A DNA stretch of 64,000 bases from a virus, in the IMG/VR virus record IMGVR_UViG_3300029914_000002, positions 152,922-216,921 of that record. One strand, 5' to 3'. A model generated the notes under the pieces. It was not told where the DNA came from, made no database searches, and saw only the letters and a list, made by a program, of their open reading frames with translations. Numbering within the stretch: position 1 is the first letter of the stretch; every line of letters starts with the position of its first letter. Position numbers and translations under genes: made by a program. Shown piece by piece: positions 2,113 through 20,834 of the stretch.

Positions 2113-2794
2113 AAAATATACATTAAATGAAACATATGAATTATCTGGAAAGAATTCATTTTTAACTTATTTGCAGATAGTTTCAAATCATGATTATCAT
2201 TTTATTTCGAATGATACATATAGAAAATTATACAAATATCATGTATTTTTTTCAACTGAAACTATAACAGGAATAGAAGATTATGTAGATATTTTTAAAT
2301 ATAAACACTCATTAGCATCAGCATATGAAATATTATTACAAATAAAAGATAATAAATTAGCATTCTTTTTTGGTATAAAAGAAAATTCTACATTAAGATA
2401 TGGATTTTTAGATTTAGATACACAAAGGAGTTATGTTGTTGGAGAATTTATATTTACTAAAGAATTTTTTGGATCAATATCTAAATATAAATCTATGCAG
2501 TTTGTTAATAAAATAATACAGAATACTGATGCTAAAAAATTACCAATACTATCAAAGATAAAACAAGATTGTGAACAATTTTACAAAGGTAAGAAGAAAA
2601 CAAAAGTAGAAATATCAGACAATAAAGTGATTATTTATATAACAAGAGATCAATTCACTGATGATGATATAAATATGAATCGTCCATTCAGATCATTAGA
2701 TAATTGGGCTTCTAAAAAAATGTGGAGAAACAAAGTTGAATGTAGCGTTGATGATGAAGGCGATCCAATAAAATTTATATTGATAGTGAAATGA
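2096..2794 (+). CDS. Hypothetical protein, first cistron of small-gene operon
   Basis: A 232-residue protein. I prefer ATG 2096 (MITNFKKYTLNETYEL) to the in-frame ATG at 2081, because it leaves a shorter overlap with the upstream gene and gives an N-terminus ending in LNE, similar to the I-x-E tags of neighbouring genes. No family is recognised; the middle is rich in aromatic residues and beta-type sequence. Its stop overlaps the ATG of the next gene (ATGA at 2791), so it heads a translationally coupled run through 4512. Confidence 0.65.
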   Translation: MITNFKKYTLNETYELSGKNSFLTYLQIVSNHDYHFISNDTYRKLYKYHVFFSTETITGIEDYVDIFKYKHSLASAYEILLQIKDNKLAFFFGIKENSTLRYGFLDLDTQRSYVVGEFIFTKEFFGSISKYKSMQFVNKIIQNTDAKKLPILSKIKQDCEQFYKGKKKTKVEISDNKVIIYITRDQFTDDDINMNRPFRSLDNWASKKMWRNKVECSVDDEGDPIKFILIVK

Positions 2795-3054
2795 AATACT
2801 TAAAAAGATTTGAAAATAAGGAAAAAGAATATAATATTGATGATTATATAATTGTTCATAATAATATATATGTAGGAACTAGTAAAATATTTAAAATTGT
2901 TGATATTGTAAAAAATGCATATTATCCATATAACGTTATTGGAGTAAATGGAGATATTCATTTTTTAGAATATAAGGACATAAAAAGAAAATTATCTAAA
3001 AAAGAAATTGAAAAATATGAATTAGATAATATATCAAATAAATTTAACATATGA
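2791..3054 (+). CDS. Small cargo-type protein (MKYLKRFEN...NKFNI), SH3-like core
   Basis: 87 residues. It starts with MKYLKRFEN and ends with NKFNI, the paired end-tags described in the findings. The core (DDYIIVHN...IFKIVDIV...YNVIGVNG) has the alternating pattern of a small beta-barrel, and its C-terminal segment (RKLSKKEIEKYE) matches that of the leftward gene at 19813-20085 (RYLTTDEIDEFE), so the two are paralogues. Coupled by ATGA to genes on both sides. Function unknown. Confidence 0.75.
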   Translation: MKYLKRFENKEKEYNIDDYIIVHNNIYVGTSKIFKIVDIVKNAYYPYNVIGVNGDIHFLEYKDIKRKLSKKEIEKYELDNISNKFNI

Positions 3055-3389
3055 AATATTTAAAAAGATTTGAAAATATTAATAATAATCCTGAAATTGG
3101 GGATTATATTATTATAGATAAACTTAATAATATACTAGGTCCAAGTTATGATGATATTTTTTATTTTTTGAATAATAATATTGGCAAAGTTGTTGGATTT
3201 GGAAATGTATATAACGGAAAAGGTATTAAAATCAAATTTTTTAATATACCAAAGAATCTAAATACTCATTTTAATCCTGATCATATAAAGATTTTTCCAA
3301 TGAATTCTATTTTAGCATTTGGTAAAAACAAAGAAACTGTGAAAGAAGAAGCTGAAATACAACGTAATATAAAGAAATTTAACTTATGA
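3051..3389 (+). CDS. Small cargo-type protein (MKYLKRFEN...KKFNL), SH3-like core
   Basis: 112 residues with N-terminal MKYLKRFEN and C-terminal IKKFNL. The core begins GDYIIID and continues with IGKVVGFG, IKIKFFNIP and DHIKIFP, a pattern suggesting a small beta-barrel like that of the upstream neighbour, although the loops differ. The ATG overlaps the upstream stop and its own TGA overlaps the next ATG. The tags are almost identical to those of the neighbour while the middle is not. Function unknown. Confidence 0.75.
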   Translation: MKYLKRFENINNNPEIGDYIIIDKLNNILGPSYDDIFYFLNNNIGKVVGFGNVYNGKGIKIKFFNIPKNLNTHFNPDHIKIFPMNSILAFGKNKETVKEEAEIQRNIKKFNL

Positions 3390-3733
3390 AATATATTAAA
3401 ACATTTGAATCAATATCAAAAGGAATCAATAATATAACTACTATTGATTGCTCTGGAGATAATTTAACTGAATTACCTGAATTACCAGATAGTTTAATTA
3501 CTTTATATTGTAATAATAATTTTTTAACTAAAATTAAAAAATTACCTCCTAATTTGAAACATTTAAAATGTTCTCATAATCATAATTTATCTGAGTTACC
3601 TATATTACCAGAAACTATGACTGAATTACGTTGCTATAACACTAAATTACCTTATAATAATCTAATTGAATATAAAAAATGGTTAGATAAAGAGCATCCT
3701 GAAATATCAAAATCTAAACAATTTAATTTATGA
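3386..3733 (+). CDS. Leucine-rich-repeat cargo-type protein (MKYIKTFES...KQFNL)
   Basis: 115 residues. Between the N-terminal MKYIKTFES and C-terminal KQFNL lie about three to four short leucine-rich repeats of the LPX type: LTELPELPDSLITLYCNNN, then IKKLPPNLKHLKCSHNH, then LSELPILPETMTELRCYN. This 20-22-residue repeat with paired LP motifs is the type found in the YopM and IpaH/SspH bacterial effectors, which bind host proteins. No E3-ligase domain follows; the protein ends after a short helical cap. Coupled by ATGA on both sides. A protein-binding role is a reasonable guess; the target is unknown. Confidence 0.8.
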   Translation: MKYIKTFESISKGINNITTIDCSGDNLTELPELPDSLITLYCNNNFLTKIKKLPPNLKHLKCSHNHNLSELPILPETMTELRCYNTKLPYNNLIEYKKWLDKEHPEISKSKQFNL

Positions 3734-4512
3734 AATACTTAAAATATTTTGAAACAAAATTAGAAGTTGAATATCATTGTCTTGAATGTGGATGGATAGG
3801 CTGGTTACCTATGACCAAAATAGTTAAATGTCCAAATTGTGGAAATATTAATGATATATGGAAAGAAGGCGAATCAATACCTGAAAGACATAAAAAAATG
3901 AATTATTTATCTGAAAATATTAATATTATTAAACAACAACCTTTTTATTTAAGTGGAGATATATTATACATATCAGATGATATGGCAAAATTAATGACTC
4001 CAACATATGCAAAATTAAATAAACTTTATAAAAATAAAGGAGTTCGTGATTATATCAATCAAGAACAAATTGATTTTTATAATAATGAAAAAGATGATAA
4101 AGGTTATTATAAATCTAGAAATATTAATACTAATATAACTGTAAGATATGAAAGGATGTATGCTATGACAATACTTATAAAAAGACTTGGTGGAGTTCTT
4201 GAAAATAAATATGGAGAATTTCAATATTTTATAGGAGGAACATCAGGAGATCACGATATGCATGGTAAAAACATGGTGAGAGATACAAAAGAATGTAATT
4301 ATAATCTAATGATAAAATATTATCCTATTATTGAACATATAAAAAATTTTTACAAAAGATTAAAATCTAAAGACGAAGGATTTTTTGATATAATTAAAGA
4401 TTCATTAGATAAAGATATAATGTTAGCTCAATACGGGGTACCAAAAGAACTAAAAAAATATTTCAAAAATGCTGAAGATGTGGCAATAAATGTTAATAAA
4501 TTTAATATATAA
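3730..4512 (+). CDS. Zinc-ribbon cargo-type protein (MKYLKYFET...NKFNI)
   Basis: 260 residues. After the tag MKYLKYFET comes a zinc ribbon with CLEC (about residues 17-20) and CPNC (about 34-37). The remaining ~200 residues (containing RYERMYAMTILIKRLGG and GGTSGDHDMHGKNMVRDT) are not recognised; the several His and Asp residues could be catalytic or metal-binding. The C-terminus is VNKFNI. It is the last gene of the coupled set, followed by 93 nt of noncoding sequence and a TATATA box for the structural gene at 4606. Confidence 0.75.
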   Translation: MKYLKYFETKLEVEYHCLECGWIGWLPMTKIVKCPNCGNINDIWKEGESIPERHKKMNYLSENINIIKQQPFYLSGDILYISDDMAKLMTPTYAKLNKLYKNKGVRDYINQEQIDFYNNEKDDKGYYKSRNINTNITVRYERMYAMTILIKRLGGVLENKYGEFQYFIGGTSGDHDMHGKNMVRDTKECNYNLMIKYYPIIEHIKNFYKRLKSKDEGFFDIIKDSLDKDIMLAQYGVPKELKKYFKNAEDVAINVNKFNI

Positions 4513-4572
4513 TATTATATATAGTATATATCATGATCTTGCATGAATTTTATTTCGAATGAAATAGATTTT

Positions 4573-4584
4573 TTTTATATATAG
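4573..4584 (+). promoter_or_regulatory. Late-promoter-like TTTTATATATAG motif
   Basis: The element lies about 22 nt upstream of the ATG at 4606, the first large structural gene. It belongs to the TTTATATATAA class seen throughout the window. Confidence 0.5.
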
Positions 4585-4605
4585 ATAAAAATTAAATTAT
4601 TAAAC

Positions 4606-7600
4606 ATGATAAATCAACAAAATAGTTTTGTATCATTAGCTGAACAACTAGCTGTATTAAATAAAAATTCTACGGAAGTTATGACAAAATTAAATGATGT
4701 CGTAACTAGTAGAAATTCTGTTATTAACGTTAACTTAATGAATTCTGATGGTACAACATCATCATATCAATTTCCAACTGTTGGACAATTGAAAAATGAA
4801 TTAGATATTGCGAATAGAAATATTCAAAAATTAGCAGGATTAGCTGATAGTACAGCCTATGTATCTGATGGTACAACAATGAGAAGAATATATGTTGATG
4901 ATTTAAATAGTGAACCTAGTCCTATTGATAGTTTAGATACAATTAATAATTTTACTTCTATAAATAATTCTTTTTTTGAATCATTATGTGATCCTATATT
5001 AGCTATTGAACTTGATTTAACTGATAAAATAGATCAAAAAGTAAAAAAAGTATTATCACGTAGATATATTATTGAATTTCAGAAAGATCAATATGGAAAT
5101 TTAACATCTGATGGAGCAAATTCTAAATCTGATTTTGAAAATAATTTCTTAAATAGAAATGATATTTTTATTGATGATTTAACTGCATGGTATACAAACA
5201 CTAAAAATAACGGAGTTTTTCAGAGAAATGAACCATATGATGAACAAATATTTGATTTGGATTATGATAGCCTTCAATACTATGGTATATTTGATGTTGT
5301 TGGTATTGATAATGATACAATAAATAATAAAATGTGGTATGTATTAGGTTCAATTACATATTACGATTATACTGGGAATACCAAACAATTATCAGTTGGA
5401 GATGAATTGATAATAAATAAAAAAGATTCATCAACATTATGGACAATTAACGAAGTTAGTACTGCTAAAAGTAATTATAGAGTTATTTTAGAGAGGGTGG
5501 AAGGCTTAGATCCTGTGCCTATACTATCACAAGGATTAAAGATTTATAGTCCTGTATTACCAGCGAGAACAATAAAAATATCTATTGGTTATGACGAGTA
5601 TAATGTTATATTTATTAAACCGATTAATACTGATTCAAATGTAATTTCGTCAACATGGTCTTATGGTACATCTTTCTATACCAACAATTTAGTATTGGAT
5701 ACTAATAGTACTGTCTCTATGACAAGATATTATAGTGATAATGTATTTGATTATGGCGCTATATTAAAAGATTTGATTGCTAAAAATATACCTAGTCAAT
5801 TTGGAGTTATTCCAAATGTACCAAATTTAACAGCTACTAATTTTAAAGTTTTACAAACAAATACTCATTTAACAAATACTGCGGATTCCGCAAAAATTCA
5901 AAGTTTAAATGTACAAAAAGTATCTATAAATTCTCAATTAGAACAATTAAATGATGCTATTATTGAACAAAATAAAGAACTTAGTACTAAACAATATAAA
6001 TCAACATCTGATAAACAAGCTAGTCAAACAACATTAAATAATTTAATAAATCAACAATCTTCTTTGACTAAATCTTATACATCAATAGTTAATCAAATAA
6101 CAGCACAAAATACTGGAGCAATTTCAGATGTTGAGGCAGAATTTAGTGTAAGAGGATTTTGGAGTGTTCCAGAACCTATTATAATAAATACAGTAGGAGA
6201 AAATCAAAAGCAAGAGGTTGTTCAATTTATTGTTCAATATAGATATAGTGCAACAGGTGGATCTGCTCCGACTACTGTTGGATTTGATCTAAATTTAACT
6301 GAAAATATATATACTAACTATATTTCAACTGGTGATATTGTAGATCAAACAAAAGCATATCAAAATCCAAGTGTATCAACTCAAAGTGTAACAGAAACTG
6401 GATATTTTTCAAATTGGTATCAATTTACAACAGATGCTAGAACAAGAACTTATAATTCAGCATTAAATGTATGGACATGGGATATTGAAGATGTTACTGA
6501 TGCAAATATAAAAAAAGTAAATCAATTGGATATTCCATTACATCCTAACGAAACAGTTGATATTAGAATTAAATCAATATCAGAAGTTGGATATCCTGAT
6601 GCACTTATTACATCTGATTGGAGTAATATTATGACTATTGATTTTCCAGATGATCTTGCACAAGTAGGTAATGAAAATGCTACAATTTTACAATCTGCTC
6701 AAAATGATCAAATATATAATCAAATAGAAAGTGATTTTAATTCAAAAGGACTAACTGCACATTTACAACAATCATATTATGTTAACGATTTATATGTTGC
6801 TCATACAGATATAAACTTAGGTACATCTTTTAAAGATAGTTCAGGCAATATGATTATGTTGAGTGATTATCTAACATCATTAACTAATAGAATTTTAGCA
6901 CTTGAACAAATTGTTTCTAATGCTAAAGGTGAACTTTCAATTAGTTTATATCAAAATACTAATAGTGTTATTATACAAAATGGCGCATCTATAACACAAA
7001 AAATAGTATGTGAAAAATATGCTGAATTGTCTGGTACAACTACAAGAACGTATTATAATAGTACATATTCAACTAATGATTATTATTTAGAATTTGATAA
7101 TTTATCTCAATCTTCACAATTAGGCTTACTTTCATATAGAAAATATGTACCTACTATTTCTGGTGATAATAGATTTTATAATCCAATATATTCAAATGGA
7201 TCATTAGCAACATATGTAGATTCAAATGATAATTTACAAACACAAGTTGATAATCAATTTGTTTGGATTTCTGATACATCAGGAAATAATGCTATATATA
7301 ATTCAGGAGTAACATATGATGCTAATGGATTAGGACAGGTATTATATTCTAAAAATTGGAATATTGGATTAACTGGTACAACAGTACCAAATTCTGGCGG
7401 TACATATTCAACACCAATCAATATTTTTAATGATATTAACTGGACTGGAGGTACTTGGATAGCAGATAATAATTATGAAACAGATTTTCCTGTTACTATT
7501 CATCCATATATTGATAATATTAACGATTATGTTTATGCTGATAAAAGTGGAGTTGAATTAATTAACGCAAATAGTAAATTTATATTACCTATTAAAATAT

Positions 7601-7791
7601 TTTTTAAATTATCTGGTGGAACAAATGATTCTATAACATTTCCAACTAATTTATCTACATCTCCATATGTAATAAGGAAATTAAGAATATTTATTGAATC
7701 TGAAAGCTTAACTAGACCATTTGAATTCGAAATTATATTTAAAATATTTAGAAATAATACATCATCAAATAGAAGTAGTACAGCATCTTAA
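4606..7791 (+). CDS. Large structural protein, probably baseplate/tail component
   Basis: 1061 residues without signal peptide or membrane segment, rich in N, S, T and Y, as phage structural proteins are. The N-terminus (about 1-90) is helical; residues about 430-500 are predicted coiled coil (SQLEQLNDAIIEQNKELSTKQ). The next stretch (WSVPEPIIIN...VVQFIVQYRY) looks like a fibronectin-type or other Ig-like beta-sandwich, and the C-terminal third is beta-rich. It precedes another ~1100-residue structural gene with only a 20-bp gap and lies upstream of the uvsY/uvsW-like genes. In T4 that neighbourhood holds baseplate-wedge genes, so a wedge role is inferred from synteny and not from a recognised domain. 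Confidence 0.7.
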   Translation: MINQQNSFVSLAEQLAVLNKNSTEVMTKLNDVVTSRNSVINVNLMNSDGTTSSYQFPTVGQLKNELDIANRNIQKLAGLADSTAYVSDGTTMRRIYVDDLNSEPSPIDSLDTINNFTSINNSFFESLCDPILAIELDLTDKIDQKVKKVLSRRYIIEFQKDQYGNLTSDGANSKSDFENNFLNRNDIFIDDLTAWYTNTKNNGVFQRNEPYDEQIFDLDYDSLQYYGIFDVVGIDNDTINNKMWYVLGSITYYDYTGNTKQLSVGDELIINKKDSSTLWTINEVSTAKSNYRVILERVEGLDPVPILSQGLKIYSPVLPARTIKISIGYDEYNVIFIKPINTDSNVISSTWSYGTSFYTNNLVLDTNSTVSMTRYYSDNVFDYGAILKDLIAKNIPSQFGVIPNVPNLTATNFKVLQTNTHLTNTADSAKIQSLNVQKVSINSQLEQLNDAIIEQNKELSTKQYKSTSDKQASQTTLNNLINQQSSLTKSYTSIVNQITAQNTGAISDVEAEFSVRGFWSVPEPIIINTVGENQKQEVVQFIVQYRYSATGGSAPTTVGFDLNLTENIYTNYISTGDIVDQTKAYQNPSVSTQSVTETGYFSNWYQFTTDARTRTYNSALNVWTWDIEDVTDANIKKVNQLDIPLHPNETVDIRIKSISEVGYPDALITSDWSNIMTIDFPDDLAQVGNENATILQSAQNDQIYNQIESDFNSKGLTAHLQQSYYVNDLYVAHTDINLGTSFKDSSGNMIMLSDYLTSLTNRILALEQIVSNAKGELSISLYQNTNSVIIQNGASITQKIVCEKYAELSGTTTRTYYNSTYSTNDYYLEFDNLSQSSQLGLLSYRKYVPTISGDNRFYNPIYSNGSLATYVDSNDNLQTQVDNQFVWISDTSGNNAIYNSGVTYDANGLGQVLYSKNWNIGLTGTTVPNSGGTYSTPINIFNDINWTGGTWIADNNYETDFPVTIHPYIDNINDYVYADKSGVELINANSKFILPIKIFFKLSGGTNDSITFPTNLSTSPYVIRKLRIFIESESLTRPFEFEIIFKIFRNNTSSNRSSTAS

Positions 7792-7811
7792 ATATAAAAT
7801 ATTAAAAAATT

Positions 7812-10800: not shown

Positions 10801-11246
10801 AAAATATAATGAATACTTCAAACGGCGTATCATCAGATAATTCTATTTATAGATATAACGGCTCTTATGAACCAATATTTAATACAATACCAGTATTTAA
10901 TAATACATTTTTATATGAATCAGGAAATACTATAAGTCAATTTGAATCAAACTATAAATTCGATACTTCATTTGAAAACTTCGGTATGATTGAAGAATTA
11001 ATTTATTCAAAAATTAATCCTGTAATATCTCCATTAAAATTAAGTAATACTAATACTGATGTATCTGTGTATCCAATAGTTGACGAATTTGGATATCAGT
11101 TTTCTTCAAGATTTATATTTAGCTCATCTTGGGATAACGATTTTTATGTAATAACAAATAATACTCAAAATATGAATAATAATGTCTTTTCAAATTTTTC
11201 TAACTATGAATATATAATTGATCCAATAAAAAATATAAATGATTAA
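7812..11246 (+). CDS. Large structural protein, probably baseplate/tail component
   Basis: 1144 residues, very rich in N, Y, F, S and D, with many SGNT and YTSG-type turns typical of tail and baseplate proteins. There is no membrane segment or enzyme motif. It follows the 1061-residue structural gene after 20 bp and is probably cotranscribed with it; its TAA overlaps the ATG of a small cargo-type gene (TAATG at 11244-11248). It is too large for a standard T4 wedge protein, so a specific T4 equivalent is not proposed. Confidence 0.7.
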   Translation: MINNSFQLLRTNPALTTNVKLVVSSDYKFYLESFDTNSQLSNQKYKHFSISKNNLYENQIVKFYDGLSSQLAFDVKYDSDDSTVFSKYEQQFDDIYWSGAKSVEDTWYNETYEYFAPLFIRKNNIPDGFVILRVDDSAPYDIQDDDLGAGKITKDNFNSQIVNNWKCVSFVDMRYNTDLGLFLNTNITNNTSYPERSFDLDFRSYEYSKFYGIDYNNGGYVNISNFLQSTLQYEQPHFKLESDIIESFKTNNLIYPHILNFKFLFNDVPADPVNIHNYSLNRYYGFYADKLELITNLTSYITPELISGFTLKNNIFGYMSGSTFIPTNESPFVEGFFLDKTYWIQLTSSETDNEFYQVVLVYNNGVNTYRVISDFDMSGSTFNVSNDRTCFINYTDGYIYNCQTINNPSGITNYISGYTSNFNIDPYYSGNTIKSMYGDLYLILIDGIYHVLKCKNDSYFIQSDYAINSYTTGLEYWKGGKNSNYYTTKQIYTYGNKPLIYPVYRIKFNDIKDFDFNRVNTHFADFDYEKDIYTATDEQKLYAIDYTDTSVLSQNYMTYPRGEDGQYQIMNVSSEYIADDELYEISFNDLTEIWRKNPSVVKWGFAGSNSNCDYPYKLNNSISIGDVFNATADVFSLLPTEVEKNLDYCYRIGNFFSGNTNNIIKYLNQTTNIEVDFMENYSKKFNLDLYLNSNVDYFDYFFKNKTYFTIDDINYTKQTLKYSTFQAGDIYTASSTLFKGLNINALNVTSVSRDINGSITSIVADNSKNFNDYKFAIILNDVYQYYTGNTYDSTYEGGLSGNTIIDISSNAIHAFLNEEFKNILVVVNVKIPIQKNYISLNNVAFFGEKFGLYNSKTLDGNSLVYPANVKEFDPSLIVASNIFNAFYDMNSLSEFDSGITYYYINSIGQSGYTAPMNTTGGTMALIPDWVKNDTPFILNLNDPAVLTTKQNSYIKTAIKGPLTNIYDKYQVYYDTNQKTKYNVSEPLARSMSLNIQQNIMNTSNGVSSDNSIYRYNGSYEPIFNTIPVFNNTFLYESGNTISQFESNYKFDTSFENFGMIEELIYSKINPVISPLKLSNTNTDVSVYPIVDEFGYQFSSRFIFSSSWDNDFYVITNNTQNMNNNVFSNFSNYEYIIDPIKNIND

Positions 11247-11563
11247 TGAAATATATTAAAACTTTTGAAAATGAATTATATAATGAACCAACATATTGGT
11301 TATTGCCGACTGATGATAGATTTGAAAAATCTTTAAAACAAATAAAATGTCCTAATAATAATATTAAATTTTTTTTAAATAATAATAGAATTAAAAATAT
11401 TAAATATGTATTCATTTGTTATTCACCATATAATAAACAATGGGAATGGAATTCATATAAAGGTAAATTACTTGACGATTATCTTGAAGAAAATAATTAT
11501 AAATTTGGTGGACATATAAATATGAATGAATTAGAATTAATTGCTGATAAATTTAACATATAA
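11246..11563 (+). CDS. Small cargo-type protein (MKYIKTFEN...DKFNI)
   Basis: 105 residues, N-terminal MKYIKTFEN and C-terminal ADKFNI. The core starts YWLLPTDDRFEKSLKQIKCP, includes YVFICYSP and ends with a tyrosine/asparagine-rich segment. The next gene carries the same YWLLPTDDRFE.SLKQIKCP block and the same layout, so the two are tandem paralogues. The start overlaps the stop of the structural gene upstream (TAATG). It is a small nonstructural-looking gene embedded in a structural operon, which would suit expression late with head and tail proteins. Confidence 0.75.
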   Translation: MKYIKTFENELYNEPTYWLLPTDDRFEKSLKQIKCPNNNIKFFLNNNRIKNIKYVFICYSPYNKQWEWNSYKGKLLDDYLEENNYKFGGHINMNELELIADKFNI

Positions 11564-11567
11564 CTAT

Positions 11568-11960
11568 ATGAAATATATAAAAATGTTTGAAGAAAATATA
11601 TATGAAAATATATATGAAAATATATATGAAAATATATATGAAAATATATATGATAGTAGATGCTATTGGTTATTACCAACTGATGATAGATTTGAAGATT
11701 CTTTAAAACAAATAAAATGTCCTGATTTTAAAATAGAACAATTTTTAGGTAATAAAAATATGAGACAATATAATTATGTATTTGTTGGATATAATCCAAC
11801 TAAAACTGTAGATGACGATGTTAGTCTTTGTTGGGGCTGGAACTATAAAGTTAATTGGAATAAAAATACTGAAGATTTTTATGAAAAAAAAGGATATAAA
11901 TTTATGGGAAATATAAATATACCTGATTTCGAATTTGATGTAAATAAATTTAATATATAA
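11568..11960 (+). CDS. Small cargo-type protein with ENIY tandem repeat
   Basis: 130 residues; I chose ATG 11568 (MKYIKMFEE) over the upstream in-frame start at 11541 because it matches the family N-terminus and begins 4 nt after the preceding stop. Directly after the tag come five exact ENIY units encoded by a 12-bp tandem repeat, then the paralogous core YWLLPTDDRFEDSLKQIKCP and YVFVGYNP, and the C-terminal VNKFNI. The repeat sits just behind the likely cleavage point of the tag, where length variation would be tolerated. Function unknown. Confidence 0.75.
   Translation: MKYIKMFEENIYENIYENIYENIYENIYDSRCYWLLPTDDRFEDSLKQIKCPDFKIEQFLGNKNMRQYNYVFVGYNPTKTVDDDVSLCWGWNYKVNWNKNTEDFYEKKGYKFMGNINIPDFEFDVNKFNI
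11592..11651 (+). repeat. 12-bp in-frame tandem repeat, five copies
   Basis: GAAAATATATAT is repeated five times without error, encoding (ENIY)x5. Such perfect short repeats are prone to slippage, but 12-bp units keep the frame, so only the length of the linker would change. Confidence 0.9.
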
Positions 11961-11975
11961 AAAAAATAATAAATA

Positions 11976-12710: not shown

Positions 12711-12723
12711 ACTAACTTCTATT

Positions 12724-12738
12724 TATATTATATATAAA
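12724..12738 (+). promoter_or_regulatory. Late-promoter-like TATATTATATATAAA motif
   Basis: The element lies about 20 nt before the ATG at 12758 in a short intergenic gap and belongs to the TTTATATATAA class. Confidence 0.45.
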
Positions 12739-12757
12739 ATAAACTCATTCTACAACT

Positions 12758-13449: not shown

Positions 13450-13618
13450 TTTGGCATATAAATTATTTATAGAAAAATTTGGATTTATTTCAATTCAGGA
13501 TTTTAAAATTAATATTTTTATGAAAAATAAAAATAGATATAAATCATATTACGATAAAGCAAATAAAATTCTAAGAAAAGAAAAATTAAAGACATTAAAA
13601 TCATATGGAACTAAATAA
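13436..13618 (+). CDS. Small basic protein, copy 1 of tandem paralogues
   Basis: 60 residues, basic and helical: MKLDDLAYKLFIEKFGF... then YKSYYDKANKILRKEKLK. The next ORF at 13605 repeats the same plan with an almost identical C-terminal half, so this is a tandem duplication. It overlaps neighbours on both sides. In T4 the uvsY-uvsW gap also holds tiny unknown genes (uvsY.-1, uvsY.-2), so position rather than sequence links them. A nucleic-acid-binding role would fit the charge. Confidence 0.65.
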   Translation: MKLDDLAYKLFIEKFGFISIQDFKINIFMKNKNRYKSYYDKANKILRKEKLKTLKSYGTK

Positions 13619-13778
13619 TTTAGCATATAAATTATTAATAAACTACTTAGGATTTACTCCAAAGTATTATTGTAAAAAAGATTTTTTTATTAAAAATAAA
13701 AATAATTTTAAATCATATTACGATAAAGCAAATAAAATTTTAAGAAAAGAAAAATTAAAGGCATTACATGAAATTTAA
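13605..13778 (+). CDS. Small basic protein, copy 2 of tandem paralogues
   Basis: 57 residues from ATG 13605: MELNNLAYKLLINYLGF, then a divergent middle, then FKSYYDKANKILRKEKLKAL. The last third is nearly identical to the gene just upstream, including at DNA level, while the middle (TPKYYCKKDFFIKN) has drifted. It overlaps the upstream gene by 14 bp and the uvsW start by 11 bp, so the whole stretch 12758-15330 is one tightly packed operon. Confidence 0.7.
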   Translation: MELNNLAYKLLINYLGFTPKYYCKKDFFIKNKNNFKSYYDKANKILRKEKLKALHEI

Positions 13779-15330
13779 ATTAAATAAAGACAATTCAAAG
13801 TTAATTTTAACAGAATCAACCAAAGGAGAATATAACCAACTTAAACTATATCTAACCAGAAAAGTTCATAACTACCGTTTTATGAAAAGGTTCAAGCTTG
13901 GTGTATGGGATGGAAGTATAAGTTATTTTGGAAATCCAGGTGGATCAATTGACTTTGGATTATGGCAAGAAATATATAAATGTTGTAAAGAGTATGGTTA
14001 TAAATTTATAATTGAAAATCAAGAACAATTTCCACGTAATAAAGATATATTAAGAGAAAATGTACAAGATTTTGTGACTGAATTTTATAAAGATCATAAA
14101 ACTCCTGATGGTAAACCTTTTATGCCATATGAACATCAAGTAGATGCAATATTTCAATTATTAAAACATCAATATGGATTAATTGAAATTGCTACTGCTG
14201 GAGGTAAATCATTGGTATTTGGCACATTACTATTTTATTATTTAAAAAATATAAATACAAATGCTAAATTTTTATTGATTGTCCCAAGTATAAGTTTAGT
14301 TACTCAATTTTATAATGATCTTAATGATTATAATTACGGTTTTAATAATGATAATAAAAACCCTATTGATATTAGAATTGATGAAGTTATGAGTGATAAA
14401 CCAAGAAAATATAGAGATGGTGAAAAAATACCAAATATATACATTGGAACTTATCAATCATTAGAAAAATATCCTAAAACATTTTTTGACCAATTTGAAG
14501 TTGTAGCATGTGATGAAGCACATACTGCAAAAGCTATTACCATTCAAACTATTTTAACAAAAACGTTTGGAGTTGCAAAATTACGATTCGGAATGAGTGG
14601 ATCTTATCCTTCGGATTCTTCAATAGAAATATTAACAATTCAATCTTTAATGGGTCCTAAATTAATAAATATTAGTGCTAGAAAATTAATAGATAAAGGA
14701 TTAATATCAGATCTTAAAATAAAAGTTATCATGTTACATCATGATAATCATAAATTTGCAGAAGGAGTTAATAATATAAAAAAAACTGACGGTCAACGTG
14801 CATGGATTTTAGAACGTGAATACGTACATAATTCAGCAAAAAGAAAAACATTTATTAAAAATTTAACAGATAAATTTAAATCTAATTCTCTTATATTATT
14901 TCATACTATTACTTATGGAACAGAATTATATAATTATATCAAAGATAATTGCATTGGTAAAGATGTGTTCTATATTGACGGTACAACATCTACAGAAAAA
15001 AGAGAATATATCAAGAAAAAATTAGAAGATACTTCAGGTAATCCTAAAATACTTTTAGCATCTTTCGGAGTATTTTCTGTCGGCGTAAGTGTTAAAGCAA
15101 TAACAAATATTATCTTTGCGGATTCTTATAAAGAGCCTAAAATAATAAGGCAAGCAATAGGGAGAGGTCTAAGATTACACAAAGAAAAAACAAAATTAAT
15201 CGTATTTGATTTGGTAGACATTTTTCATCCTGACTATAAAACAATATTATGGAAACAATATGAATCTAGAAGAGATGAAGTATATAAAAAACAACAATAT
15301 CCTTATGATGAATTAAAGGTCAAATTATAA
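13768..15330 (+). CDS. uvsW: UvsW-like SF2 helicase
   Basis: 520 residues, close to T4 UvsW (503 aa). The N-terminal ~110 residues form the small UvsW substrate-binding domain (FKLGVWDGSISYF is typical). RecA-like domain 1 has the Walker A ATAGGKS at 143-149 and DEAH at 249-252; domain 2 includes FHTITYG, LLASFGVFSVGVSVK and the motif VI region RQAIGRGLRL. UvsW unwinds branched DNA and R-loops and switches replication to recombination-dependent initiation. The ATG overlaps the preceding small gene. The enzyme appears intact. Confidence 0.95.
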   Translation: MKFKLNKDNSKLILTESTKGEYNQLKLYLTRKVHNYRFMKRFKLGVWDGSISYFGNPGGSIDFGLWQEIYKCCKEYGYKFIIENQEQFPRNKDILRENVQDFVTEFYKDHKTPDGKPFMPYEHQVDAIFQLLKHQYGLIEIATAGGKSLVFGTLLFYYLKNINTNAKFLLIVPSISLVTQFYNDLNDYNYGFNNDNKNPIDIRIDEVMSDKPRKYRDGEKIPNIYIGTYQSLEKYPKTFFDQFEVVACDEAHTAKAITIQTILTKTFGVAKLRFGMSGSYPSDSSIEILTIQSLMGPKLINISARKLIDKGLISDLKIKVIMLHHDNHKFAEGVNNIKKTDGQRAWILEREYVHNSAKRKTFIKNLTDKFKSNSLILFHTITYGTELYNYIKDNCIGKDVFYIDGTTSTEKREYIKKKLEDTSGNPKILLASFGVFSVGVSVKAITNIIFADSYKEPKIIRQAIGRGLRLHKEKTKLIVFDLVDIFHPDYKTILWKQYESRRDEVYKKQQYPYDELKVKL

Positions 15331-16299
15331 TTAATCTTTAATTCTTATAAATTTGCAATTTAAAAAATTTTCAATTTCTTTTTGCCTATCAAGATCTTTT
15401 TGTCTTAATTCACCTTTTATAAAATGATGTTTTTCGTCATACTCATATACTACATTATTTATAGCATCATATCCATCTATCCAATAACCAAGTTCTTCAA
15501 TATGATATTCTCCCTCATTCATTGCATGTTGAATATGAATATTTTCATTCTTTGATATTTCATCAAAAATATCACAACCTTTTTTATTATATGATGGAAA
15601 TACTTGATTTCCATCAAATTTATCATCACTTAATCTTTTTAATCTTTTTAATCTTTTACTTGTATTACTACATTTTTGACAACCACACAATAATAAATGA
15701 TGAGATGAAGTTTGTTTAAAATCGCCATGTATAGGACAACTAATTACTAGCTTCGTGCTTGAGTCAATATAATTAGAATCTGAATAATTTGGATAAGTAT
15801 ATTTATTGTTGTGTAATATTTTTGCTTCAGAAACGAATTTTTTATATCTTTTTTCTATTCTTTTTTCTTTATTACATTTTATGCAGCCTCTTCCGTCAAT
15901 TAAATCTTTCGGTAACATTTTAAATTCTCCGTGTTTTTCGCATTCTACAATAACACAAGTATGATTATTAACATATACACTCTTTGAAAAATCAAGATTA
16001 TTTTTATATACTTCATTTAATTGTGCAATAAATGTTTCCTGACTTTTAGCGAAATACAATTTTGCAGCGCATTTATAACTACATGAAAATATAGATTTTC
16101 TCATATAAACATCATATCTAATTTGAGTTTTTCTATGACAAACATCGCATTCTACATCAATAATAACTTTTGAATTCGGTTTTAAATGACAAACGTTAAC
16201 TTCAATATATTCATTTAATTTTACTTTATATCCTAATTTTTCAAAATGATCTTTGTTGCTTGTACTAATTCTAATATTAACAGTTTTACTTATTATCAT
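15331..16299 (-). CDS. Zinc-finger/Vsr-like homing endonuclease
   Basis: 322 residues, leftward, its stop abutting the uvsW stop. The N-terminal part has CDVCH...CSYKC (about 50-76). Two CxKHGEF/CPIHGDF-type modules follow, each ending in a CxKC pair (GCIKCNK, GCQKC); these repeats occur in phage homing endonucleases. The C-terminal ~90 residues look like a Vsr-type nuclease fold: DGYDAINNVVYEYDEKHHF, then DRQKEIENFLNCKFIRI, with acidic and His residues suited to metal catalysis. It is a free-standing gene on the opposite strand next to a conserved replication gene, the usual setting for homing endonucleases. Confidence 0.75.
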   Translation of the reverse strand: MIISKTVNIRISTSNKDHFEKLGYKVKLNEYIEVNVCHLKPNSKVIIDVECDVCHRKTQIRYDVYMRKSIFSCSYKCAAKLYFAKSQETFIAQLNEVYKNNLDFSKSVYVNNHTCVIVECEKHGEFKMLPKDLIDGRGCIKCNKEKRIEKRYKKFVSEAKILHNNKYTYPNYSDSNYIDSSTKLVISCPIHGDFKQTSSHHLLLCGCQKCSNTSKRLKRLKRLSDDKFDGNQVFPSYNKKGCDIFDEISKNENIHIQHAMNEGEYHIEELGYWIDGYDAINNVVYEYDEKHHFIKGELRQKDLDRQKEIENFLNCKFIRIKD

Positions 16300-16318
16300 T
16301 TATTATTTTATTTTATTA

Positions 16319-16336
16319 TCATATATTTATATAAAA
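16319..16336 (-). promoter_or_regulatory. TATATAAATATA motif upstream of endonuclease gene
   Basis: On the minus strand TTTTATATAAATATATG lies about 20 nt before the ATG at 16299. It is a weaker member of the TATA-type motif class. Confidence 0.3.
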
Positions 16337-16376
16337 ATAATTAAGTTTTGTTTATTTTAATTATAATCACTAATAT

Positions 16377-16391
16377 TTAATATATAAATAA
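16377..16391 (+). promoter_or_regulatory. Late-promoter-like TTAATATATAAATAA motif
   Basis: The element lies about 10-20 nt upstream of the ATG at 16401 in the divergent intergenic region. Confidence 0.4.
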
Positions 16392-16400
16392 AAAATTAAA

Positions 16401-16712
16401 ATGGAAATAAATAAATTTAATGAATTTATTAATAATGATTTATTAGTTATAGAAAAATTAATTGATGATTTAGAAAATCAAAAAGGTAATTGTTCAGTAT
16501 TAGAAAAAATATATTCTCATCCATCATATATTAAAATTATAGAATATGGTGAAAAATCAATACCTTCATTATTAAATAGAATAGATGAGAGTATGTTTTG
16601 GTTTGAAGCATTACGTAGAATAACTGGGGACGAGCCTGACAAAGAATCAATTAAATCAATTGATATTATGAATTCTTGGAAAAAATGGGGTATAGAAAAT
16701 GGATATAAATAA
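16401..16712 (+). CDS. Small HEAT-like protein
   Basis: 103 residues starting MEINKFNEFINND. The pattern HPSYIKIIEYGEKSIPSLLNRI, then WFEALRRITG, then SWKKWGIENGY is that of short HEAT-like bacterial proteins in which a Gly-rich turn precedes an IP-LL helix and the end is W-x-x-W-G. In bacteria such proteins often lie beside toxins or as orphan immunity-type genes. It overlaps the next gene by 14 bp. A chaperone or antitoxin role for the neighbour is possible but unproven. Confidence 0.6.
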   Translation: MEINKFNEFINNDLLVIEKLIDDLENQKGNCSVLEKIYSHPSYIKIIEYGEKSIPSLLNRIDESMFWFEALRRITGDEPDKESIKSIDIMNSWKKWGIENGYK

Positions 16713-17145
16713 TATTGAAATTTGGCATCCTAAATTGATAGGTAAAAATTATAAAATTATAAATATAAATTATAATTTAATTGTTTTTAATTGTTTTGCA
16801 TATAGTTTAGATATATTTGATGAATGGTGTGGCGCATCAGAAAAATCTTGGCCTTATAATATATTACCGCGTAGTTCAAAATTAAATAATTATATTAAAT
16901 ATTATAATTTATATGGATATAATATATGTGATAATGATGAGTATGAATTTGAATATGAAAAAGTAGCACTTTATGTTGATAATTCTAATAATGTAAATCA
17001 TGCATCTAAACAGTATGAAAATATATGGAGAAGTAAATTAGGAAAATATGTTATAATTGAGCATGAATTAGAATGGTTAACTGGATTTGATGCTGAAAAT
17101 TATGGTAATATTGGTGTGATTTTAAAAAGAAAGAGAAAGGCATAA
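16699..17145 (+). CDS. Putative papain-like-fold protein (uncharacterised NCFA...HAS family)
   Basis: 148 residues. The conserved-looking core is NCFAYSLDIFDEW (about residues 31-43), then EKVALYVD, VNHASKQ, then IWRSKLGKYVIIEHELEWLTG and YGNIGVILKR. The spacing of Cys 31 and the His of NHAS, followed by W-S-K-L-G and H-x-L-E-x-L, is what I would expect from an NlpC/P60 or related papain-like fold in an uncharacterised bacterial family. The catalytic Cys-His assignment is inferred. It overlaps the HEAT-like gene, so the two are probably coexpressed. Confidence 0.6.
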   Translation: MDINNIEIWHPKLIGKNYKIININYNLIVFNCFAYSLDIFDEWCGASEKSWPYNILPRSSKLNNYIKYYNLYGYNICDNDEYEFEYEKVALYVDNSNNVNHASKQYENIWRSKLGKYVIIEHELEWLTGFDAENYGNIGVILKRKRKA

Positions 17146-17160
17146 AAACTTTTTATATTT

Positions 17161-17176
17161 TTTTATATATAATAAA
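17161..17176 (+). promoter_or_regulatory. Late-promoter-like TTTTATATATAATAAA motif
   Basis: The motif lies about 10-25 nt before the ATG of the M15 peptidase at 17186, a typical late-expressed lysis function, which supports reading it as a late promoter. Confidence 0.5.
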
Positions 17177-17185
17177 AAAGAAAAT

Positions 17186-17602
17186 ATGAAACTTGGAAAA
17201 TATTTTAGTTTATCGGAATTAACTGTAACTTCAACAGGATTAAATAATTTACCAATGAAGCCAGAGCAAGATAATTTAGTATTATTAGTTAAGAATATAC
17301 TTGATCCATTAAGGGAATTATATGGTAATCAAATTCATATAAATAGTGGATATCGTTCTCCGATAGTTAATAGAGAAATTAAAGGGTTCATCAATAGTCA
17401 GCATGTATTTGGTCAAGCAGCAGATATTACAGGTGGTAGTCCAGAAGAAAATGAAAAACTTTTTAATTTAATAGTTAGCAATTTCAAATTTGATCAGATT
17501 ATAAATGAAAAAAATTTCGAATGGGTACATGTTAGTTACTCAAATGTTAAAAATAGAAATGAAAAATTAAAATTTACTGGTAAAGGTTATATAAAAATAT
17601 AA
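17186..17602 (+). CDS. M15 peptidase, probable endolysin
   Basis: 138 residues of peptidase M15A type (D-Ala-D-Ala carboxypeptidase / L-Ala-D-Glu endopeptidase fold). The zinc-site motif is SQHVFGQAADI with His73 and Asp80, and the third ligand is His115 in WVHVSY; INSGYRSP earlier in the chain is also typical. It has no signal peptide, so release would need a holin or another route. Length is normal for a single-domain phage M15 enzyme. It has its own TATATATAA box and ends in a strong terminator. It most likely cleaves peptidoglycan stem peptides at lysis. Confidence 0.85.
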   Translation: MKLGKYFSLSELTVTSTGLNNLPMKPEQDNLVLLVKNILDPLRELYGNQIHINSGYRSPIVNREIKGFINSQHVFGQAADITGGSPEENEKLFNLIVSNFKFDQIINEKNFEWVHVSYSNVKNRNEKLKFTGKGYIKI

Positions 17603-17633
17603 AAAAAGACTGTCATAATGACAGTCTTTTTAA
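17602..17633. terminator. Bidirectional rho-independent terminator
   Basis: AAAAGACTGTCATAATGACAGTCTTTT forms a strong stem flanked by A and T tracts, between the converging genes ending at 17602 and 17634. Confidence 0.9.
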
Positions 17634-18344
17634 TTATATATTGAAATTATTTGACTTTAATATGTAGTCATATTCTATTCTTATATTATCATCTAATATT
17701 TCATCAGGAATATTATTAATTAGAAATGAATTATTCTTTAAATATTGTTTTTGAAAATTATATGTCATAAAAATATTTATAATATTTTTTGCTGAAATTT
17801 TATTTGAAACATCTATATCTTTTGATGGAGTCCACTTTTTAGTATTTAAATCTAATTTATATCCATTATAATAAAATATCATTTTATCTAAAAATAATAT
17901 ATTACTTAATGATGGTAATTTATTTTTAAAATTATCATTTATAAATTTAATTGTATATTTTGCATAATCTGTATCCCAATTTAACCAAAAATTAGTAGAT
18001 AAAGAATATATAGAATTTATTATTAATAAATCTTCATATGATAAATTAGATTTAATTATTTGTTTTTTATTTGTCATTATTTGATTAGATTTTGTGATAT
18101 CACTTGTGATACTATTAACATAATCAATTATATTACCTAAAAGTTTCATTGGATTATTAATTATTGTGTTACTTTCAAGATAATCTATAATCTCACTATA
18201 TGCTTCATGCCAATAAAATGAATATAATTCATTATTATGAAGTATATTTAATGTTCCACGTCTAGGGGAGAAATCAAACCCAAAGGATTTGTTTTTACCT
18301 ATATCAGATATATTGAATTCATTTAATTTTTTGATGTATTTCAT
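17634..18344 (-). CDS. Cargo-type protein (MKYIKKLNEF...NNFNI)
   Basis: 236 residues on the minus strand. The N-terminus MKYIKKLNEFN and C-terminus SNNFNI match the end-tags of the small cargo-type proteins; the F codon of the tail is TTC here instead of TTT, so the amino acid rather than the exact DNA is kept. The interior (FDFSPRRGTLNILHNNELYSFYWHEA, helical afterwards) matches no family I know. It follows the 18348 gene by 3 nt and runs into the terminator at 17602-17633. Confidence 0.7.
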   Translation of the reverse strand: MKYIKKLNEFNISDIGKNKSFGFDFSPRRGTLNILHNNELYSFYWHEAYSEIIDYLESNTIINNPMKLLGNIIDYVNSITSDITKSNQIMTNKKQIIKSNLSYEDLLIINSIYSLSTNFWLNWDTDYAKYTIKFINDNFKNKLPSLSNILFLDKMIFYYNGYKLDLNTKKWTPSKDIDVSNKISAKNIINIFMTYNFQKQYLKNNSFLINNIPDEILDDNIRIEYDYILKSNNFNI

Positions 18345-18347
18345 AAT

Positions 18348-19169
18348 TTACATATTAAAATTTGCTGCATCTTTTTCTAAATTAAAAACATTAGATATTT
18401 TACAATAATATATAACTGTAAATTTAATACCTACTATTTCTTTATGATCTTTAACTTTTGCTGTCATATATATAGTATCACCTTTTTCTACTATTCTACC
18501 AATATTATAAGTCATATATCTATTACCTTCTTCATCTATTAATTTACAAGTATATTGAGTGCCAAATTCAGTGTTTTGGATTTTAAAATTATAAACATCA
18601 GCTTTTATTGTAATTTTACTTCCAATCTCACCAACATATTTACTTATACTTTCTTCTTGATTTTTTTTGGTTAATGTTTCAAAGAATAGATTTTTATATT
18701 TTTCAATTTCATTCGCCATATCTTCATTTCCTTGAAATCCTTTAGATAACCAAACAACATATTGAGGATCATCTACGAATACTTCACCTATTGTTTCTCC
18801 ACGATGTTTTCCAAATTTTAATATTTTATTTTTTTCTGCTTGAAATAATCCAGCATATGTACCAAATCTATCTATAATAACTGGAATTTGACCAGAAGCT
18901 TTAGCAGCTTTTTTAACTGCTGTCGTAAAGTCAGTACTTAAATTACAAATATAATAGCATGATGCACTTCTTGGATTCCATCTCCAAAAAGTATAATAAA
19001 CGGAGTATTTTCCAGATACATCTATATAAAAGCAGCCTACATCTCTAATTGTCAATTTTTTATCTTTTCCTTCTTCTAATATTTTTTCAGCTTCTAAAAC
19101 ATCTTCATCACTTGGTTGTATGAGTTGATTCATTTTAGCTTCTTTGATATATTGCAAGTATGTTTTCAT
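18348..19169 (-). CDS. Cargo-type protein with ExoX-C-like segment (MKTYLQYIKEA...)
   Basis: 273 residues. The first residues MKTYLQYIKEAK are strikingly like the T4 capsid-targeting sequence MKTYQEFIAEA, with a possible I-x-E cut after residue 10. The middle contains ILKFGKHRGETIGEVF and DPQYVVWL, the short F-G-K-H-x-G...P-x-Y-x-x-W-L motif of the ExoX C-terminal/DUF3820 type, often linked to nucleases. The C-terminal ~100 residues look like an OB-type beta domain (ITIKADVYNFKIQ...GDTIYMTAKV). It ends AANFNM. Expression is leftward together with the 17634 gene. Confidence 0.7.
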   Translation of the reverse strand: MKTYLQYIKEAKMNQLIQPSDEDVLEAEKILEEGKDKKLTIRDVGCFYIDVSGKYSVYYTFWRWNPRSASCYYICNLSTDFTTAVKKAAKASGQIPVIIDRFGTYAGLFQAEKNKILKFGKHRGETIGEVFVDDPQYVVWLSKGFQGNEDMANEIEKYKNLFFETLTKKNQEESISKYVGEIGSKITIKADVYNFKIQNTEFGTQYTCKLIDEEGNRYMTYNIGRIVEKGDTIYMTAKVKDHKEIVGIKFTVIYYCKISNVFNLEKDAANFNM

Positions 19170-19189
19170 ATTATGAATGATTTATTTTT

Positions 19190-19208
19190 TAATTATATAT
19201 TAAAAAAA
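19190..19208 (-). promoter_or_regulatory. Late-promoter-like TTAATATATAATTAA motif
   Basis: On the minus strand the motif lies about 25-35 nt upstream of the ATG at 19169, within the divergent region between 19169 and 19267. Confidence 0.35.
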
Positions 19209-19266
19209 ATAAACAAAAAATAATAATTATCATATAACTTAATAATAAAAAAAATATAAATATAAT

Positions 19267-19752
19267 ATGATAATAACATTAACGATTGATGATATTTTTA
19301 GACGTTGCTTATGGAGTGACTACAAAAGATTTGTACTTAAAGATAAAAATGAGCAAGAGATTCAAGAAATTGTAAAAGAAAATAAGCCAATCGTCATTTC
19401 AGAAAATGATGCATATGCAATAGGATTACTAAAAACAATAGAGACAGATAATTTAGTACATAGGTTTATTGTTCATATGAAAGAGATGATAAGTATAAAA
19501 TCAAATATTTTTGATAAAAATGTTTATTTATCTGTTAGAATAGTAGAAAATGAATTAGAAAGTTATAAGAAAAGATTTCCTGATTATTGGGATTCAGATC
19601 CAGTGTTTACTGATGCTATAGTAGATTTGAATAATTTCATTAATAATGCGTTACAGCAAATTAAAAAATTTGAAGTTTACGAATTTAAAATTAAAGATAA
19701 AAAAATTAGATATTATTTATCTAAAGATATTAAAAAAATGATTGAAAATTAA
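19267..19752 (+). CDS. Hypothetical protein
   Basis: 161 residues starting MIITLTIDDIFRRCLWSDYKRFVL. It is soluble, charged and mostly helical after residue 40. No recognisable motif. It stands alone between two leftward operons, with a TATCTTTG sequence and a hairpin terminator just behind its stop. Function unknown. Confidence 0.65.
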   Translation: MIITLTIDDIFRRCLWSDYKRFVLKDKNEQEIQEIVKENKPIVISENDAYAIGLLKTIETDNLVHRFIVHMKEMISIKSNIFDKNVYLSVRIVENELESYKKRFPDYWDSDPVFTDAIVDLNNFINNALQQIKKFEVYEFKIKDKKIRYYLSKDIKKMIEN

Positions 19753-19783
19753 AAATAATTTTGTATCTTTGTAATATAATATT

Positions 19784-19815
19784 AAAAAGAACCTTATATT
19801 GAGGTTCTTTTTTTA
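19784..19815. terminator. Bidirectional rho-independent terminator
   Basis: AAGAACCTTATATTGAGGTTCTT forms a stem flanked by A-rich and T-rich tracts; it lies between the converging genes ending at 19752 and 19813. Confidence 0.85.
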
Positions 19816-20085
19816 TAAATTAAATTTAATTGCATTTATATTAGATTCAAATTCATCTATTTCATCTGTAGTTAAATATCTAATTATTTTATAAAAAAGA
19901 ACAGTATCAGTTTTATTATCATCATATAATATTTTATATGATGTTGTAGAGTCAAAGTTATTTTTTATTATTTTTGATTTTTTATCAACTCTATGATGTG
20001 GATCAAAATAAATATTAACTAAAATATATTCACCTTCTTTATAATTTTTATTTTCAATCATTTCAAATTTCTTAATATATTTCAT
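19813..20085 (-). CDS. Small cargo-type protein (MKYIKKFEM...IKFNL), SH3-like core
   Basis: 90 residues, N-terminal MKYIKKFEM and C-terminal AIKFNL. The core (EGEYILVNIYFDP...YKILYDDN) looks like a small beta-barrel, and RYLTTDEIDEFE matches the C-terminal block of the gene at 2791-3054, so these are dispersed paralogues. The C-terminal tag is kept although no gene start overlaps it here, only a terminator. The start ATG overlaps the upstream stop (ATGA at 20082-20085). Confidence 0.75.
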   Translation of the reverse strand: MKYIKKFEMIENKNYKEGEYILVNIYFDPHHRVDKKSKIIKNNFDSTTSYKILYDDNKTDTVLFYKIIRYLTTDEIDEFESNINAIKFNL

Positions 20086-20465
20086 AAATTAAATTTGTTT
20101 ATATCTGTTTCAAGTTTATTAAGTTTATTATAAATATTTTTTATAACAGTTAAATTAGATTTATTATCATTTTTATATATATCTAATGAAAATCTAATAT
20201 TATTTGATGATTCACTATAATTAAAACTTACTTCATATTTATCACCGTTATATTCAAATTTATAATCTGGATAATTTCTGGTAAAATGAATTTCATTATT
20301 CGTCCTTTGTTTAGAATTTGATGCGCTATGCCAAAAATAACATTTCTTATATTTTTCAGCGCAATCTATTGTATATTTAAGTTTTTTTGTCAATTCTGGA
20401 TCATATAAAAAATCATCTTCTATCTTCTTTTTAGATTCATTTATAAATTCAATAAAATTTTTCAT
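20082..20465 (-). CDS. Cargo-type protein (MKNFIEFINES...NKFNL)
   Basis: 127 residues. The N-terminus MKNFIEFINESKKK is of the T4-like capsid-targeting form, with a possible cleavage after FINE, and the C-terminus is INKFNL. The interior includes CAEKYKKCYFWHSASN and a beta-rich YKFEYNGDKYEVSFNY block; no family is recognised. The start overlaps the stop of the acetyltransferase fragment (ATGA), so it was the second cistron of the operon that the IS element now interrupts. Confidence 0.75.
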   Translation of the reverse strand: MKNFIEFINESKKKIEDDFLYDPELTKKLKYTIDCAEKYKKCYFWHSASNSKQRTNNEIHFTRNYPDYKFEYNGDKYEVSFNYSESSNNIRFSLDIYKNDNKSNLTVIKNIYNKLNKLETDINKFNL

Positions 20466-20833: not shown

Positions 20834-20834
20834 A

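Follow-up and report, generated by a model that had tools for sequence, protein, structure and literature searches.

Accessory proteins with unrelated cores share short N- and C-terminal motifs in a phage record: candidate head cargo

The window analysed here, 64,000 nucleotides long (23.4% G+C), is the final 64 kb of the 216,921-base virus record IMGVR_UViG_3300029914_000002. Many accessory proteins encoded in the window and in the rest of the record have unrelated cores and share two short motifs that are under protein-level selection: one at the N terminus (mainly MKYIKxFE) and one at the C terminus (KFN(I/L)). They are called the N tag and the C tag, or tail, below. The N tag resembles the capsid-targeting sequence of the phage T4 internal proteins, and we consider it probable that the tagged proteins are head cargo, whichever role the tail has.

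Extent of the two terminal motifs

The original prediction listed eleven genes with such ends. All eleven were open at the coordinates of Table 1, with both ends in place and no internal stops. The strict N tag was defined as an MKxφKx(F/Y)(E/D) start (φ, hydrophobic) and the C tag as a (K/N/Q)(F/Y)N(I/L/M/V) end. Eight of the eleven genes fit the strict N motif; the genes at 18348 and 20082 have T4-like starts, and the gene at 17634 starts with MKYIKKLNEF. A loose N regular expression was discarded because its matches were far too common: 102 of 246 open reading frames (ORFs) of the record and about one third of the ORFs in several outgroups.

The 246 ORFs of at least 60 amino acids (aa) were taken from 166 of the 217 kb of the record. 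The strict N tag was present in 50, the C tag in 64 and both in 45 (Fisher 2.5e-28); for the 66 ORFs of the window the corresponding numbers were 8, 11 and 8 (Fisher 2.9e-8). The genome-wide search for starts and ends, which had been proposed together with the list, revealed that the eleven genes are only a small part of the tagged set. The DNA pattern for MKx(hydrophobic)KxFE matched the record exactly at 39 places and its reversed control at none; for the KFN-x-stop pattern the counts were 65 and 2, respectively. Inside the tagged proteins the tail motif was found at 5 of 7,867 four-residue places. The reversed-pattern controls and this internal match rate rule out a chance origin of the shared ends.

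Tagged genes occur on both strands, often in runs, and in 36 of 63 tails the TGA stop overlaps the next ATG. The C tag is nearly confined to proteins with the N tag or a recognisable variant of it (45 of 64 strict); eight C-tagged ORFs miss even the loose N pattern, most of them having variant starts. Co-occurrence figures are given for this record alone, because the loci of the relatives were selected via the tags: loci L051-L165 were fetched, among the matches listed, with a pattern containing both tags, and ORFs of relatives were retained for the tagged-protein set only if they had an N or a C tag. A literature search, which covered few subscription papers, found no description of the KFN tail or of MKYIKxFE-type starts.

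With the relatives included, at least 411 distinct tagged proteins were collected. After trimming of the ends they fell into 152 BLAST groups, 100 of them singletons, i.e. the presumptive mature parts are mutually unrelated, as in the T4 type. The four largest groups were weakly SH3-like (102), ankyrin (29), the YWLLPTDDRF family (28) and leucine-rich repeat (LRR, 27). Of the interiors named in the original prediction, the LRR of the 3386 gene (LRR_4, 1.3e-6) and the ExoX-C-like segment of the 18348 gene (ExoX-like_C, 6e-8) were confirmed by matches above the cut-off. The zinc ribbon at 3730 is suggested by a match below the cut-off (Zn_ribbon_8, E 0.037), and the SH3-like barrel at 3051 by an AlphaFold2 model whose best Foldseek match had an E of 0.08. 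Foldseek searches with both core models gave zero matches at E 0.001, and an SH3-family protein had no match in the annotated phages. The 273-aa protein of the 18348 gene had no relative in the bacterial genomes searched, and its matches in nine phage records were no more than partial, covering 30-51% of the query. PADLOC returned single matches only for the tagged set, the best being PDC-M72A (4e-20) with one untraced member.

The shared ends could also be mainly a DNA-level feature, a junction repeat serving translational coupling, with cassettes exchanged by homology and the peptides as by-products. The 36 overlapping tails and the turnover of the cargo slots would fit such a repeat, as would two features of the tail codons: the last Ile codon was ATA in 104 of 104 TGA cases, and Asn at -2 was encoded by AAC at a frequency of 0.53 (background 0.11). 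However, the tag codons used synonymous alternatives at or above the background rate. Y3 of the N tag was encoded by TAT/TAC at 0.79/0.21 (background 0.92/0.08), and F at -3 of the tail by TTT/TTC at 0.89/0.11 in TGA cases. Moreover, 188 of 382 tails stop with TAA or TAG. These stops and the codon use argue that the tail is no by-product of overlapping starts; that it is wholly such a by-product is ruled out by the TAA/TAG stops together with the tails that do not overlap. In the relative G003 the tail is mostly KYN(I/L), an amino-acid-conservative change (3/2 matches against the control for F alone, 30/5 with F or Y). The DNA-level explanation is thus highly improbable, and the C tag is a protein-level motif travelling with the N tag; exchange at the tag junctions may happen in addition. 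The codon bias of the tails, such as those at 3043-3054 and 3378-3389, (AAC at -2, terminal Ile nearly always ATA) was also seen without an overlapping start.

In two unrelated core families (alignments A2 and A3) the tags were among the most conserved columns, a conservation inflated because some rows come from tag-selected loci. In two AlphaFold2 models the confidence of the N tag was under 50 at residues 1-9 and 1-5. The C tag lay at the frayed end of the last helix; one model had low confidence over its last five residues, the other over its last two only. Low terminal confidence is commonplace, so it would fit short binding motifs and is no proof of them.

The N tag and the phage head

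T4 IPII and IPIII start with MKTYQEFIAEA and IPI with MKTFKEFTST. In the review PMC9026906, T4 targeting is assigned mainly to residues 4 and 7 and processing to residues 8 and 10. The N tag retains T4 positions 4 (hydrophobic) and 7 (F/Y), and departs at 8 and 10. Among 253 strict tags position 4 was I in 156 and L in 92, and position 7 was F in 209 and Y in 44; because the regular expression limits these positions to I/L/V/M/Y and F/Y, the support comes from recurrence over the control rather than from these counts. More complete variants are found in the clade (MKTYLQYIKEA, MKKYNQFINEN, MKNFIEFINES), and one orthologous group (F17) alternates MKYIKEYE, MKTYQQFNE and MKTFIQFNE.

The T4 processing site, (L/I)xE, is present in the variants YIKE and FINE, and FNE is close to it. 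In MKYIKxFE proteins the residue after E was N in 62 and S in 43 of 252 cases (background 9.3% and 5.6%), L, I, Y and F being scarce. After FNE or (I/L)xE the residue was S, N, A or G in 39 of 48 cases. Among the clade's capsid proteins (from 53 loci), 45 of the 47 rows listed have NE-N, with L, M, I or V in front of it, at the place of FLTE-A in T4 gp23. Rows were kept only if the ORF exceeded 500 aa and had GMG at residues 31-110, and some rows repeat one contig; L211 is a wrong ORF, and L212 reads HE-N. We infer that the capsid protein is cleaved between E and N of this NE-N sequence. The N-tag variants end in FNE or FINE followed by N or S, like the predicted capsid site. Cleavage after FE, as originally predicted, was not established, since MKYIKxFE keeps the targeting positions and not (L/I)xE. 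These features indirectly support reading the N tag as a T4-type capsid-targeting sequence in another dialect.

The close relative G003, which bears both tags, has T4-type head genes. Its portal (3.8e-61) and capsid protein (7.1e-25) are of the T4 type, and its head maturation protease (L210 8640-11012) matched phrog_207 (5.4e-32), Pfam S80 above the cut-off and S77 below it. In IMGVR_UViG_3300029983_000023 a related capsid gene and a tag junction lie on one contig.

Two classes of motif were found upstream of operon heads, a T-run with ATATA and TAnnTTTG. The latter we take to be the Bacteroidota-type motif. The T-run/ATATA motif also precedes structural genes at 4606, 23234, 30754 and 32198. 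In the window's record TTT(A/T)ATATA was present within 70 bases of 14 of 16 tagged heads vs 21 of 94 untagged heads (Fisher 9.6e-7; 6% in shuffles), and TAnnTTTG at 1 of 16 vs 18 of 94 (p 0.3). The late-like regular expression was fixed after viewing this record; the relatives are therefore the fairer test, and there, with proteins identical to those of this phage excluded, TTT(A/T)ATATA was found at 34 of 91 tagged vs 72 of 318 untagged heads (p 0.0065) and TAnnTTTG at 4 of 91 vs 53 of 318 (p 0.0018). In G003 the late-like motif was matched upstream of the portal gene (6285) and unmatched upstream of the capsid and protease genes (L210 11097 and 8640). The evidence leans towards late expression of the tagged genes; their identity as early genes is unsupported by the upstream motif counts.

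The original interpretation holds in part. Its N-terminal half, the N tag as a head address, has indirect support from the T4 positions, the tag swaps between orthologues, the cut-site-like residue after E, the head protease of a relative, the late-like upstream motif and the absence of the tags from conserved genes (see below). Also counted for head cargo were the co-occurrence of the tags, the reversed-pattern controls, the codon use and TAA/TAG stops at the tags, the 152 core groups and the fast turnover between backbone genes.

The tags might instead send the proteins elsewhere than the head, for instance to a host partner or to an intracellular structure made by the phage. Such a destination would suit the ankyrin, LRR and weakly SH3-like cores, which are folds of a general binding type. 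On the other hand, orthologues alternate with T4-like tags, N or S after E matches the predicted capsid site, and tagged heads show no enrichment of the host-type TAnnTTTG (not significant in the window's record). We regard a destination outside the head as unlikely.

Several points weigh against head cargo. The main dialect, MKYIKxFE, lacks the T4 (L/I)xE processing motif, and the role is predicted from genes and not from virions; both points also speak for the destinations outside the head. The late-like motif was weaker in the relatives than in the record on which it was fixed. No capsid or protease gene was detected in the window's record, a fragment; the Pfam S77 and Gp23 models gave no match there, and their control had no match anywhere. 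The gp21-like protease for which a search had been proposed has a T4-type counterpart in G003 and was not found in this record. The one match to a PHROG 'internal head protein' (E 5.8e-5) is untraced: it was not among 29 singly scanned members of set A1, which consists of 122 of 137 family representatives and 4 others. With regard to the tail, (I/L/M)xE was not enriched near it (0.0176 per residue in tails vs 0.0180 in cores), T4 internal proteins have no KFN-type tail, and some N-tagged families (groups F7, F24 and F49) are tail-less.

Distribution and possible role of the tail

For the UvsW-like helicase and the 1,061-aa structural protein, the nearest records were those of huge phages (462-735 kb), Lak phages, Sphingomonas phage PAU and Tenacibaculum phages. 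In seven comparison loci, found without using the tags as query, the backbone proteins (UvsW and those of 1,060, 1,145, 226, 152, 161 and about 830 aa) carried neither strict tag. A spread of the ends over proteins of every class including replication enzymes, which would have spoken against the original prediction, was thus not seen in these conserved genes. Tagged genes fill the slots between the conserved backbone genes. In four loci the backbone genes were 61-95% identical to those of the window, whereas the C-tagged genes were either missing or 33-79% identical; these loci also lacked several untagged accessory genes.

The N pattern exceeded its control in LR745206 (26/3), LR756504 (22/0) and LR756500 (23/2), which share with the window's record recurrent starts such as MKYILEYEEFLLE and MKYLKLYENF. 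Their tail counts (11/7, 15/10 and 16/7) exceed the control far less than the 65/2 of the window's record. There was no N-pattern excess in LR756501 (1/3), PAU, Lak-A1, pT24, PTm5, T4 and phiM12; the pattern demands E at position 8, and the tag of T4 itself does not fit it. LR756501 has MIKKFxxFE starts in its place. In the window's clade the KFN tail reached 65/2, 103/7 and 40/2, other records being weak or negative. G015 had the N pattern (16/1) and no tail excess (15/16). Weak excesses in distant contigs (G017 8/2, G018 6/1, G021 6/1), in LR756501 (13/5) and in LR756500 count against a sharp boundary of the tail. The distribution among records, rather than a tree, suggests that the N tag is the wider element and that the C tag, which is strong in a single sub-clade only, was added later. 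Between the portal and head protease genes of G003 lies a gene for a 150-aa protein rich in lysine and glutamate (L210 8076-8528, +). This protein was matched in 21 of 28 rows with a capsid identity of at least 71% and in 0 of 32 below; its range is wider than that of the tail, and therefore it is a weak lead only as receptor.

Of the proposed second signal, a real protein-level motif accompanying the N tag stood up, and no computed result shows a packaging signal. A tail clipped off as a propeptide is unsupported, there being no (I/L/M)xE excess before it. We tentatively favour, short of calling it probable, head cargo with the tail serving the same route of loading or ejection. The N tag would dock each protein on the prohead core through hydrophobic residue 4 and F/Y 7, and would be clipped after E where the site allows (FNE or FINE, perhaps FE, before N or S). 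The KFN(I/L)-COOH tail, added in one sub-clade, would bind a further partner in the route, and the cargo would pass into the host together with the DNA, on the model of the T4 internal proteins. A bipartite address, in which the N terminus and the free KFN(I/L)-COOH are each recognised by different head or core components, is possible at a slightly lower confidence. Two-ended recognition might ensure that only full-length cargo is loaded, or an ordered placing and ejection. With loading through the N tag, the tail could instead do another job, for instance mark the protein for stability or degradation, attract a chaperone or serve as a full-length check. The T4 internal proteins are tail-less, and LR745206, LR756504, LR756500 and G015 have the N pattern with little or no tail excess, so that use of the N tag is independent of the tail; yet in the window's record almost all proteins that bear the tail also have the N tag or a variant. 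Such a separate job seems rather doubtful, if a little less so than a destination outside the head.

Window genes, known systems and meaning

The tagged genes of the window, and two genes with a tag-like start only, are collected in Table 1.

Table 1. Genes with shared ends in the window, and one upstream motif
Positions	Strand	Feature	N-terminal start	C-terminal end	Length (aa)	Remarks
2096..2794	+	N-tag-like start only	MITNFKKYTLNET	no KFN end	232	94% identical in L218
2791..3054	+	tagged gene	MKYLKRFEN	NKFNI	87	4-base overlap with next gene
3051..3389	+	tagged gene	MKYLKRFEN	KKFNL	112	weakly SH3/Tudor-like core (AlphaFold2 model, Foldseek)
3386..3733	+	tagged gene	MKYIKTFES	KQFNL	115	LRR core (Pfam LRR_4)
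3730..4512	+	tagged gene	MKYLKYFET	NKFNI	260	possible zinc ribbon (below cut-off)
11246..11563	+	tagged gene	MKYIKTFEN	DKFNI	105	YWLLPTDDRF family
11568..11960	+	tagged gene	MKYIKMFEE	NKFNI	130	paralogue of 11246 gene; NIYE repeats after tag
17634..18344	-	tagged gene	MKYIKKLNEF	NNFNI	236	variant N tag
18348..19169	-	tagged gene	MKTYLQYIKEAK	ANFNM	273	T4-like start; ExoX-like_C
19196..19204	-	late-like upstream motif of 18348 gene				TTTAATATA
19813..20085	-	tagged gene	MKYIKKFEM	IKFNL	90	
20082..20465	-	tagged gene	MKNFIEFINESK	NKFNL	127	T4-like start
57394..57720	+	tagged gene	MKHLKLFEN	KKFNL	108	
58807..59664	+	T4-like start only	MKKYLNFINEGN	no KFN end	285	

The NIYE repeats of the 11568 gene are five, near-perfect and directly behind the N tag; its paralogue at 11246 has none. 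Just upstream of the tagged pair 19813-20465 lies a GNAT acetyltransferase-like ORF (20462-20911, -; Acetyltransf_1 2.4e-10). A resolvase with a MerR-type head (22490-23092, -; Resolvase 1.6e-15) adjoins a 533-aa protein without Pfam match, and the two (20856-23092, -) look like an IS607/TnpB-type element. Four relatives have an N-tagged, tail-less protein (group F7) near the place of this pair. Outside the window, at record positions 67716-68205 (L040 3717-4206), one of two overlapping ORFs carries the N tag only and the other the C tag only; they look like one gene split by a frameshift, and intact relatives exist (group F10). A second array of about 14 consecutive ORFs, mostly of 83-116 aa, also lies beyond the window, on the minus strand at about 128.4-132.3 kb of the record (L182 16390-19448 and L183 221-791). 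These ORFs have starts like MKKQNINVGDKLLCKK and ends like RKIKLEKLYEE, without a KFN tail or strict N tag; genes of other lengths nearby have similar RKxKLxKL ends.

The known kind to which the tagged proteins come closest is the T4 internal proteins, the second, C-terminal tag being undescribed. Like IPI, IPII and IPIII they carry a short MKx(hydrophobic)xx(F/Y) tag on unrelated, fast-changing small proteins. Unlike the three T4 proteins, they are encoded by tens of genes per record; their main dialect lacks (L/I)xE, and KFN(I/L) has been added at the C terminus. T4 Alt is a head protein that loses something at both termini (PMC5694885), but it loses 63 C-terminal residues at an LTE site, whereas the tail comprises four terminal residues, and no Alt-type excess of (I/L/M)xE precedes it. 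The ejection proteins of SPN3US and phiKZ are likewise many, reside in a giant-phage head and are cut after E (PMC5694885 and PMC9026906). Several of their propeptides exceed 100 residues (PMC5694885), whereas the tag here has about 8; two models place the start of the core's first element at residue 16-19, and no long propeptide of the phiKZ type is present.

The tagged genes are probably the internal-protein arsenal of a T4-related huge phage, probably with a Bacteroidota host; cutting of the tag, loading into the head, injection and whatever the tail does are inferred. T4 Ip1-3 are described as injected anti-restriction proteins that share only the N-terminal leader (PMC12373910; for IPIII also PMC9391042), and by this analogy inhibition of defence would be the likeliest job of the tagged cores. 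If the proposal is true, two short motifs mark the cargo of a huge-phage clade, and hundreds of unnamed genes become candidates for injected anti-defence proteins. It would also illustrate the change of capsid-targeting signals from one phage lineage to another, and the free C-terminal tag would offer another, independent means of loading proteins into phage heads. With a bipartite address, the arsenal that a single phage can load could comprise some 60 different proteins.

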